Below, in pieces: positions 5,515-26,233 of a stretch of 64,000 bases of DNA. Source of the stretch: an uncultured Clostridia bacterium (GTDB taxonomy: Bacteria > Bacillota > Clostridia > Oscillospirales > Acutalibacteraceae); the NCBI GenBank assembly GCA_947627345.1, contig CANQVS010000003.1, forward strand, positions 1 through 64,000, read 5' to 3'. Position 1 is the first letter of the stretch. Each line of letters begins with the position of its first letter. Below the pieces are notes generated by a model that worked only from the letters and a program-made list of their open reading frames with translations, made no database searches and had not been told where the DNA came from. Made by a program: the position numbers and the translations under genes.

Positions 5515-8500
5515 TCAATTAGAGTATGTTGTCCAGCTTTCGGAACTAAGAACGAAACAGTTGTTAGGCATACTAACCGTAATATCCCCCGTTTGATTAA
5601 CAAACGATTTTGGATCCTCGGTATCCTTTAAGAGGAATGTCTTAATTCCGTCAGGGATAGGTTGCGGAAGGTCAATCTTCCAATAGTTTGTGCCTTCTAT
5701 CCTTTCAAGCGGAATAGTATTATTAGCCATACCGTAACCCCATCCGTAGATATATACGTTACTCCATCCTTTGTCATTAAGGACGTAAAGTGTTGATAAG
5801 GAATCAGGTTGTTGTTCCGCAACATAAGGTTCAACGGCTCCGTCAGGCTGACCCCCGAGGGGATAATCGTTAAGGCGGTAACAGTTATTGGTAGTTGAGA
5901 ATGTTACAGGCATAAGGTTGTATGCCTCACTGCTTGTTTCAGGATTATCAACAGGTCCCGTTGCACGGTAAATTATAGCATTCGTGAGTGACGTTGGAAC
6001 ACTTGTATAGAACACCTGAGGATAAACACTTGTATCCTGTACCATCAAATAACTCTGACCCGTTGCAGTATCGTAAACATAGGGCTCAGAACCCATTGAA
6101 CTAATCCACGAGAGTGTTGTCTTTAAATAAACCGTATAGGTTGAATCATCATCGGGCGTAGTCGGTGTATCTGTTGGTGTATCTGTCGGAGTTTCTGTTG
6201 TAGGTTGTTGGGGTGTTGCGGTAGGTGTCGGTTGCTGTGACGAATATTTTTCGCCTGTCTTTCCAGACATACTCATTTTTGCAATATACTTTTGAACACA
6301 AGTAGCGTCTTTAATTTTAACTATACCGTCGCCGTCAACATCAGCTACGGATAAAGCGTCACCTGTGAGAGTAATTATCTGTGCAACGTGCTTCTGAATT
6401 ATTGTAACATCTGCAATATTAATTGCACCGTCAAGGTTAACGTCACCATACATCAAATCACCTGTGATAGTCTGTGATGTTGATTCGCTTTCGGTTGAAG
6501 ATGATGTCTGAGTCGGTGTAGGTGTAGAAGCAGATGTAGGCGCGGACGTTGAAGAAGATGCTGTGGTAGTGACTTGAGTTGCATTTCCCTTTGTTACATC
6601 TGTTGCGGGAACTGATGTAGACTGTCCGGGCTTATCAGTTGTTACTGCCCAGTTAGATGTGCTCGGCGTACCCGAAAGAGCTGTCAGCTTATGGGACGTA
6701 CCGCCGAGATCAAGAGTTCTTCTTGAGCTTGAACCCGGGAACTGTTTGCCCTGTGAAACACCGCCCGCCGATTTAGACGAGTCGCTTACGATAACGTGCG
6801 TATTCTTTGAACCGGCAAGATTAAAGTTTGCAGTAACAGGGGATGCTGAACCTGTAACCTGTCCGTTTGTAACCTTTGTAGTTTTCTCTGAAATACAGGT
6901 AGTATTGCTGACTTCAAGATAATAAGCATCAAGCTTGGAATCATACTGCATTTCCTCGCCCGGCCACGATGCGTTTTTATAAACCTGACCGCCTACTGTA
7001 AGTCCGTTTCCCGAATCCTGATCAAACAGATAGCAGTATAAAGGAGCATTCCAGCTTGCACTCTTAACGGTTGACGCCGGAAGTATGATATATACTCCCG
7101 AAGAAGCCGCCTCAGCCTTAGTGTACTGATACTGCGATGTAGTTGTCTGTACTCCGTCTGTAGCTGTTAATGTAAGCTTAATTGTTTCTCCTACTTTATA
7201 GTCGGAACCAATTCTAATTTTCGGTGAACCAGTAAATGTTACAGGCGTATAATTATCAAGCTGATAAGTACCGCTTGTCGCATTTGAAAGCGAAAGACCG
7301 ACTGTGATTGTATCGCCCTTAAAGGTTTGTGTTTCCTGGTCCGCAAAAGCCATAGGAGTTGTTGAACCCTGAGTTACAACCGCGATACCTGTTGAGCCTA
7401 TCTGACCGCTTACAGTACCGCCTGATACTGTAAAGTTACTGCCTGTAATCATATCTTTATAGGTACCGTTAGCAAGACCTGTTCCGCTAACATTTACGGA
7501 AGCTGTTGTGCCGTTTGTATTAACTAAAACAACACCTGTCGTACCTCTTGCTACATAAGCGATACTTCCGCTTGCGCCTGTTTTCTCGCTCTGTCCTACA
7601 AAGTTATTGTGGAATTTGTTAACTTCCGCAACCGCTACGCTCTTATAGGAAGTGTTAACGGCGCTTCCGCCCATATTCATACCGTTTGTACGGGCAAAAT
7701 AGAGAGGAGTTGCGTCTTTTCTCGAAGCAACCATAGCCCAAGTCTTCATAATATCGGAATCTGATATGTTAGTTGTATTACCCGATTCTGTATTTAAATA
7801 TGTGTCGTGTGATTCTGCCCAAAGCACAGCGTGGGACGCTCCGCCCGAGAGAGAATAGGAAGCGTTAACTGCGCCTGAAGCATTATGGCTTGTTACAGCG
7901 TTACGAATAGAGGTTGATGTAGTGTTATCTGTAACTCTGTATTTACCGCCGTCCAGGTTTGTATAACCTGTAATGGACCTTCCGCCACCGGGGGTATTAA
8001 GAACCTCTCCGTAATAGAACAGAGATTTATTAGCTTTTGACTGAGCATAGGTAGAAGCCTGACCTAATACGTTCGGCCAGTAGTTGTTCGGAGAAATACC
8101 CGAGTCCGCGGGAGTTTCAATGTGTTTAGCCGCGTCAAACCGGAAACCGTCAACTCCGCAATCAATACATTCTTTAAGGAGGCTTACAACTCTTCCCTGA
8201 ACGGTTGTATTACCTGTGTTAAGGTCAGGGCAGGAAGATGATACATACTGTGTTACAGTAGTAGCGTTGCTGTCAGACGCTGTTCCTGTAGGAGCATGGA
8301 AGTAAGGGTTGTTCGCTACTCTACCTGTACCATTCCAAAGAGTAGGTTCGTATGTCTTAACTTCAGCAGCAAGCTCGTTGTAGCTGTTTTCATTACTTGC
8401 ACCGAGATGGTTCGTTACAACGTCACAGATAATCTTAACATTGTATTTGTGGGCTGTTTCGCAGAGAGATTTAAGCTCCTGTGCAGTACCTACCCAGCTG

Positions 8501-25732: not shown

Positions 25733-25761
25733 TTGACAACTCATCCATTATTTGATATAAT
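25733..25761 (+). promoter_or_regulatory. Perfect SigA consensus promoter TTGACA - 17 nt - TATAAT
   Basis: Exact -35 and -10 hexamers with 17-nt spacing, 17 nt upstream of the first tRNA-like unit. Confidence 0.85.
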
Positions 25762-25778
25762 GGGTGAGTTGAAAATAA

Positions 25779-25933
25779 GCAGATATAGTGGAATTGACAT
25801 CTCAAAACACATTAGTTTAAAAAAAGATTTTAACAGTTTTCTGGTGAAATATACGCAGATTAAGATGAGCAGTAAATTTTAGTTGAAATTAGTCTCTGCT
25901 TCGGTAAACTCAGAAAAAGACTTAACCTAATAT
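25779..25933 (+). repeat. Degenerate tRNA-Leu 5'-half-derived unit A (155 bp)
   Basis: GCAGATATAGTGGAATTGACATCT matches GCGGATATGGCGGAATTGGCAGAC with substitutions; the tail aligns with unit B (CAG-TTTTCTG...ATATACGCAGATTAAGAT). Confidence 0.55.
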
Positions 25934-26093
25934 GCGGATATGGCGGAATTGGCAGACGCGCATGGTTCAGGCCACGCCACGTCTGTGTAAATTAACTTCT
26001 TACAGATTTTTCTGTTAAGATATATGTGGATTAGGATATACTCCCCACCTCGGTTGCTCCACCGTGTAAAAATTAGGAGCAAAAATTAAACAT
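25934..26093 (+). pseudogene. Truncated tRNA-Leu copy (unit B): 38 nt identical to tRNA-Leu(CAG), then unrelated tail
   Basis: GCGGATATGGCGGAATTGGCAGACGCGCATGGTTCAGG is identical to the functional gene at 26094, then diverges. Confidence 0.85.
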
Positions 26094-26180
26094 GCGGATA
26101 TGGCGGAATTGGCAGACGCGCATGGTTCAGGTCCATGTGAAAGCAATTTCATGCAGGTTCAAGTCCTGTTATCCGCACCA
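26094..26180 (+). tRNA. tRNA-Leu(CAG)
   Basis: GCGGATATGGCGGAATTGGCAGACGCGCATGG TTCAGGT CCATG...GGTTCAAGTCCTGTTATCCGCACCA. Confidence 0.93.
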
Positions 26181-26191
26181 TAATATGTAAC

Positions 26192-26233
26192 GAACAATCC
26201 CGACAGTCTTCTTAGGCGCAATCGGGATTGTTC
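26192..26233 (+). terminator. Hairpin terminator after tRNA-Leu
   Basis: GAACAATCCCGA ... TCGGGATTGTTC. Confidence 0.7.

Follow-up and report, generated by a model that had tools for sequence, protein, structure and literature searches.

The two truncated tRNA-Leu units that precede the functional tRNA-Leu(CAG) gene in the window (the whole 64,000-nt stretch of DNA analysed here) are very probably, at a probability of about 0.88, two successive, stacked attL scars left by integrative elements whose insertion target is the anticodon loop of tRNA-Leu(CAG/UAG) genes. According to the mechanism we propose, a mobile element would integrate at the anticodon loop of tRNA-Leu, at a CAGG or TAGG core, and cut the gene in two, while it would carry a leader motif and a complete but promoterless tRNA-Leu immediately inside its left end. 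The promoter of the cut gene would then transcribe the element tRNA via the left-over 5′ half. A later element could split the new tRNA likewise, so that 5′ halves would accumulate at the left side and 3′ halves at the right; the two scars in the window would have arisen in this way and subsequently lost the element bodies. Confidence in the promoter capture and in the roles of the leader is lower than in the integration reading. Both junctions, the rejoining of the tRNA halves, the recombinase and relaxase, and the missing promoter were established in relatives.

The array begins with a perfect consensus promoter and consists of three units (Table 1), of which the third is the sole tRNA according to both ARAGORN and Rfam. 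The first-pass annotation had already described these features as well as the verbatim retention of 38 nt of the tRNA 5′ half in unit B, and all of them were confirmed. Unit B and the tRNA have a 43-nt repeat of 98% identity in common at a spacing of 160 nt, in which the 38 nt up to TTCAGG are identical. Unit A, regarded earlier as a more diverged copy, indeed aligned to unit B with a score of 44, while the best of 1000 shuffles reached 39; its alignment to the tRNA alone was weak, the same score being attained by 7 of 1000 shuffles. Hairpins had been noticed in the tails of both units; that of unit B is the variable stem (S2) in a leader motif that is conserved, and unit A has this motif in a decayed form. 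The window copy at 26026–26089 is the only strong one in the genome. The 18-nt arm that follows the anticodon of unit B, like the recurrence of the whole anatomy in relatives, went beyond the earlier description; it occurs as a single copy in the window. The small hairpin between the arm and the leader motif is not terminator-like in the window but is terminator-like in some relatives.

Table 1. Features of the tRNA-Leu(CAG) locus in the window
Feature	Position	Strand	Evidence
Consensus promoter TTGACA-17-TATAAT	25733–25761	+	12/12 match
Unit A, decayed remnant of a tRNA-Leu 5′ half; oldest of the resident left halves, presumed attL	25779–25815	+	Shuffle-tested alignment to unit B
Unit A leader motif, decayed	25855–25923	+	Covariance model R1, 13.5 bits, second-best match in the window
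Unit B, tRNA-Leu 5′ half preserved intact as far as the TTCAGG of the anticodon loop; attL left half-site	25934–25971	+	Identical to 26094–26131
CAGG core, common to attL and attR junctions of relatives	25968–25971	+	Junction alignment
Element arm (X), CCACGCCACGTCTGTGTAA	25972–25990	+	Matches attL arms of relatives; inverted counterpart at attR
Small hairpin between arm and leader motif	26001–26018	+	Sequence and relatives
tRNA-Leu leader motif, P1 stem and probable H-type pseudoknot	26026–26089	+	R1 70.7 bits, E 2.2e−20; covariation
Functional tRNA-Leu(CAG)	26094–26180	+	ARAGORN and Rfam

In this reading, the youngest event would have left unit B as its left junction, unit A would be an older left junction, now decayed, and the present tRNA-Leu(CAG) would have come with the youngest element. 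The promoter originally served the resident tRNA-Leu and now probably drives the whole array. A right junction, an inverted arm, and a recombinase were all looked for in the window and none of them was found, nor did the search of the whole genome reveal a further tRNA-Leu 3′ half. Because of these results, the element bodies and right ends appear to have been lost from this locus or to be missing from the assembly, and since the window contains no recombinase, the locus is filed as a scar of serine recombinase elements and not as an element. A perfect 12-nt inverted repeat (GAACAATCCCGA/TCGGGATTGTTC) lies directly 3′ of the tRNA at 26192–26233, with no clear T run after it.

When the window segment was used as the query against 59 relatives, similar sequence was detected in 56 genomes, and a pattern search with the tail gave more than 118 stretches in Ruminococcus and other Oscillospirales-type genomes, a few chance matches apart. 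Many of the relatives' loci contain one to four units of approximately 160 nt, flanked by a promoter on one side and a tRNA-Leu on the other. The orthologous loci, whose synteny is marked by a LicD-like gene upstream, hold from zero to four units per species, which is contrary to the possibility raised earlier that the units would be absent elsewhere; in the unit-free locus L024 (G031), the same promoter is directly joined to the tRNA. Comparison of the tRNA-Leu(CAG) locus in relatives, as suggested in the first-pass annotation, thus showed that the units recur with the same anatomy in many genomes. The 5′ halves always break off in the anticodon loop, after which the recurrent 18-nt arm follows. 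Most units (29/43) mismatch the local tRNA in the acceptor or anticodon stem, the mismatches being concentrated at stem positions, and some units are separated by cargo genes. The units in L022 and L032 lack the leader motif.

The complete examples found in relatives start at the left end with the resident 5′ half, the 18-nt arm, the leader, and a complete tRNA-Leu. Often a large serine recombinase gene, oriented towards the tRNA, comes next; cargo follows, and at the right end the inverted arm adjoins the 3′ half of the resident gene. Such attR sites, where the tRNA-Leu 3′ half begins at the anticodon, occur in many relatives (right junctions were identified in L142, G002, G007, G010, G012, G025, and G033 and at UAG-type loci). 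At L142, the inverted arm with an exact tRNA-Leu 3′ half is situated 1.5 kb beyond the functional tRNA, and a second, nested right junction lies further out. The left and right arms are inverted repeats of each other with 13–17 of 18 positions identical, a similarity that was reached by only 0–1 of 5000 shuffles, and the att core of the relatives is CAGG or TAGG. Judging from these junctions, attP would consist of a short core flanked by P and P′ arms that are imperfect inverted repeats of each other.

The rejoining of the tRNA halves was analysed in the five cases in which both ends could be located, the two junctions being on one contig in G002, G012, and L142 and on different contigs, so that their pairing is inferred, in G025 and G033. 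Joining the attL 5′ half to the attR 3′ half restored a tRNA-Leu(CAG) recognized by ARAGORN in all five cases, with 7/7 acceptor pairs, while in four of the five the resident halves paired worse with the element tRNA (4–6 of 7 acceptor pairs). The functional tRNA-Leu, either CAG or UAG, is a separate complete copy located between attL and attR. Since the halves rejoin and, in four cases, match each other better than they match the element tRNA, we concluded that the resident gene was split and that a complete second tRNA was brought in. Among the three explanations offered in the first-pass annotation, the integration-site scar is the one that stood, although not in its usual kind, since the resident tRNA was split and replaced, not restored. 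Carriage by viruses and plasmids was also considered and rejected: virus contigs gave no match to the arm-junction (attP) arrangement and one match to the leader motif, which was in the same chromosomal-type context, and no plasmid covered the left end of the element, the match being 88 nt only.

In 21 of the 107 loci with the leader motif, the tRNA has a large serine recombinase gene no more than 900 nt downstream, in convergent orientation in 20 of them; this gene was absent within that distance at the other 86. It was present at 15/37 loci with an upstream split 5′ half versus 6/70 loci without it (p = 1.8e−4), while 0/32 control tRNAs had an adjoining recombinase. The Resolvase, Recombinase, and Zn_ribbon_recom domains (Pfam) were recognized in the G002 and G012 elements and in the L060 and L094 proteins. 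In both the G002 element, which is about 37 kb long, and the G012 element of about 22 kb, the recombinase lies beside a MobA/VirD2-type relaxase, and ABC transporters are included in the cargo. The location of a recombinase beside attR was rejected, as the genes on the attR side are varied cargo and the recombinase adjoins the tRNA instead. The large serine recombinase is the likely enzyme acting on the anticodon-loop junctions. At 8496–11495 of L231, the G002 element also encodes a protein of 1000 aa that matched the Pfam family for RNA-dependent RNA polymerase (PF05183, E 3.7e−12). Small recombinase-free elements with the same junctions were observed in L142 (4122–5258 and 5480–6883), L044 (5317–5850), and L123 (7066–7332, reverse strand); their cargo is a single gene, for example, a small membrane protein gene or a serine hydrolase gene, and they resemble cassettes mobilized by an enzyme supplied from another source.

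A near-consensus promoter was present upstream of the first 5′ half in 72% of the loci. In the interval between the arm and the leader motif, a promoter score of at least 10 was reached in 0/45 units and the mean score equalled that of the shuffles. Because no promoter was found between arm and leader in these 45 units, the element tRNA most likely relies on the split gene's promoter, and transcription would read through the left-over 5′ half to the element tRNA. Equilibrium folding predicted that this 5′ half competes for the 3′ strand of the tRNA and that the leader gives no cure: the tRNA's own acceptor pairing was 0.24 with the native and 0.23 with a shuffled leader, and the role of the motif as a folding insulator was rejected. 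Pairing of the 5′ half with the arm as a conserved RNA structure was not convincing either (mean score 11.6 vs. 11.2 for shuffled sequences).

The leader proved to be a new, strongly covarying RNA motif. It consists, in this order, of a stem GNGG..CCNC with an AUYA bulge, CUCGG, the variable stem, CCGUGUAAAAAU, and the variable-stem partner. In the alignment, 89% of the cells were paired compared with about 44–52% when it was slid, and 13 of the 16 pairs had changes on both sides. The variable-stem partner could form an H-type pseudoknot, whose stem is rated only as likely, because it is mostly invariant (its U-U mismatch is U-A in five sequences) and its letters were fixed in the first search pattern. 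Wherever a complete tRNA follows the motif (179 copies), it is a tRNA-Leu, 145 of the CAG and 34 of the UAG type, and zero other isotypes were found. The motif had no match in Rfam 15 at the gathering score or in permissive searches, which returned tRNA alone, and a known RNA family or riboswitch was discarded as its identity. Its distribution is patchy: at the chosen threshold, it was found in 28/295 genomes of the order, where a few matches, lacking a nearby tRNA, were due to chance, while in the set of 399 genomes of the phylum a convincing match was seen only in the window's own genome. At loci with several copies, the copy nearest the tRNA scored higher in 21/32, which is only suggestive of a gradient of decay away from the tRNA.

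The strong covariation and the exclusive association with tRNA-Leu(CAG/UAG), together with the terminator-like hairpins that precede the motif in some units, could also mean that the units are functional leader RNAs, either tRNA mimics or an attenuator, which regulate the expression of tRNA-Leu. This is very unlikely, as the 5′ halves and arms are accounted for as integration junctions, unit A is decayed, promoter and tRNA are kept in unit-free relatives, motif-free units exist, and the leader did not protect the tRNA fold in equilibrium folding. Functional tRNA-mimic RNAs, which the first-pass annotation had considered, are unsupported for the 5′ halves, while the leader between the units is nevertheless a covarying motif, for which a regulatory role is possible and compatible with the element junctions.

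If homologous or slipped recombination had duplicated the leader and the tRNA 5′ half in tandem, and the copies had then decayed, no site-specific element would be needed. Copy number differs among related species and the tail of unit B in the window corresponds to the third unit of the four-unit array in L130, so some of the changes in unit number likely occurred via homologous recombination. As a general explanation, such duplication is nonetheless improbable, since every break falls in the anticodon loop and adjoins the same arm, 3′ halves that match and carry the inverted arm lie tens of kb away, the halves often show mismatches to the local tRNA, as though derived from another gene, and cargo genes are present between units; the rejoining attL/attR pairs have already largely refuted it. 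The anticodon loop is a standard crossover subsite of tyrosine integrases (PMC4383910), and the units could represent scars of classical islands that restore the tRNA by carrying one half, in which case the element would supply the 5′ half. The probability of this is minimal: the 3′ half of the functional tRNA differs from the resident attR 3′ half in 4/5 cases, which indicates import of the tRNA as a whole, the arms form long inverted repeats, and a recombinase of the serine family lies nearby. As stated, this explanation is refuted by the rejoining test.

Integration at the anticodon loop with replacement of the tRNA has its closest known counterpart, by analogy, in the tRNA-dependent lysogeny of actinobacteriophages, which use a tyrosine integrase and whose phage tRNA has its own upstream promoter region (PMC10865867). 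In both systems the insertion occurs inside a host tRNA gene at a short common core, the tRNA is not reconstructed, and the element brings a complete tRNA of the same isotype. Unlike those phages of Actinobacteria, the elements described here are relaxase-bearing, occur in Clostridia, probably use a large serine recombinase, carry a promoterless tRNA that follows a conserved leader motif at the left junction, and show stacked events. Islander-type islands (PMC4383910) also have a tRNA gene at one end and a fragment at the other, use the anticodon-loop subsite, and can be in tandem, but they involve tyrosine integrases and restore the gene by an identity block, while here the resident gene is unrestored and the difference between element tRNA and resident halves contradicts such restoration in 4/5 cases. 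Large serine recombinase integrative mobilizable elements are similar in the Resolvase, Recombinase, and Zn_ribbon domains, in the nearby relaxase, and in att sites composed of imperfect inverted repeats and a short core; they differ in that here the target is the tRNA-Leu anticodon loop and a replacement tRNA is carried.

Other inserts were also observed at tRNA-Leu genes. At L022, L023, L026, L030, L034, L039, and L068, a second type of insert, about 130–200 nt long and often containing a conserved AAATAAGGAGC..GCGACTATATTT structure, follows tRNA nucleotide 19 or so (D loop, GGAATTGG). At L023 and L030, the two that were checked, it is flanked by a 55–58 bp direct repeat comprising the leader and tRNA start, and it is apparently a separate small element that uses this gene as well. 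Downstream of tRNA-Leu at L005, L006, L029, L115, and L175, the tRNA 3′-end (T loop to CCA) recurs in palindromic or tandem copies, as many as three at L175, which suggests yet another insertion type. Palindromic elements of about 120–150 bp lie downstream of the tRNA terminator at L005, L007, L011, and L028, and their ends (TTGGCAGACGC..GCGTCTGCCAA) copy the tRNA-Leu D arm.

According to a source from 2014, serine integrases were not known to target tRNA genes (PMC4383910), while the probable serine-recombinase family reported here targets one and carries its own promoterless repair tRNA; exceptions published later may exist. Searches of the literature, covering open-licence papers, found no prior description of these elements. 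The chances seem about even that a serine-recombinase family of gut and rumen Clostridia splits tRNA-Leu and carries a promoterless copy that becomes active only by capturing the promoter of its victim, behind a new tRNA-Leu-specific leader RNA that lets the chimeric transcript express the copy correctly. The element junctions would explain otherwise odd loci with tandem half tRNAs, they revealed a new structured motif that stands as a leader before tRNA-Leu(CAG/UAG) alone, and they define the att sites sufficiently for direct recombination assays. If the reading of a promoterless repair tRNA is true, expression would be tied to correct integration, which would serve as a fail-safe for the element and as a marker for finding such elements.
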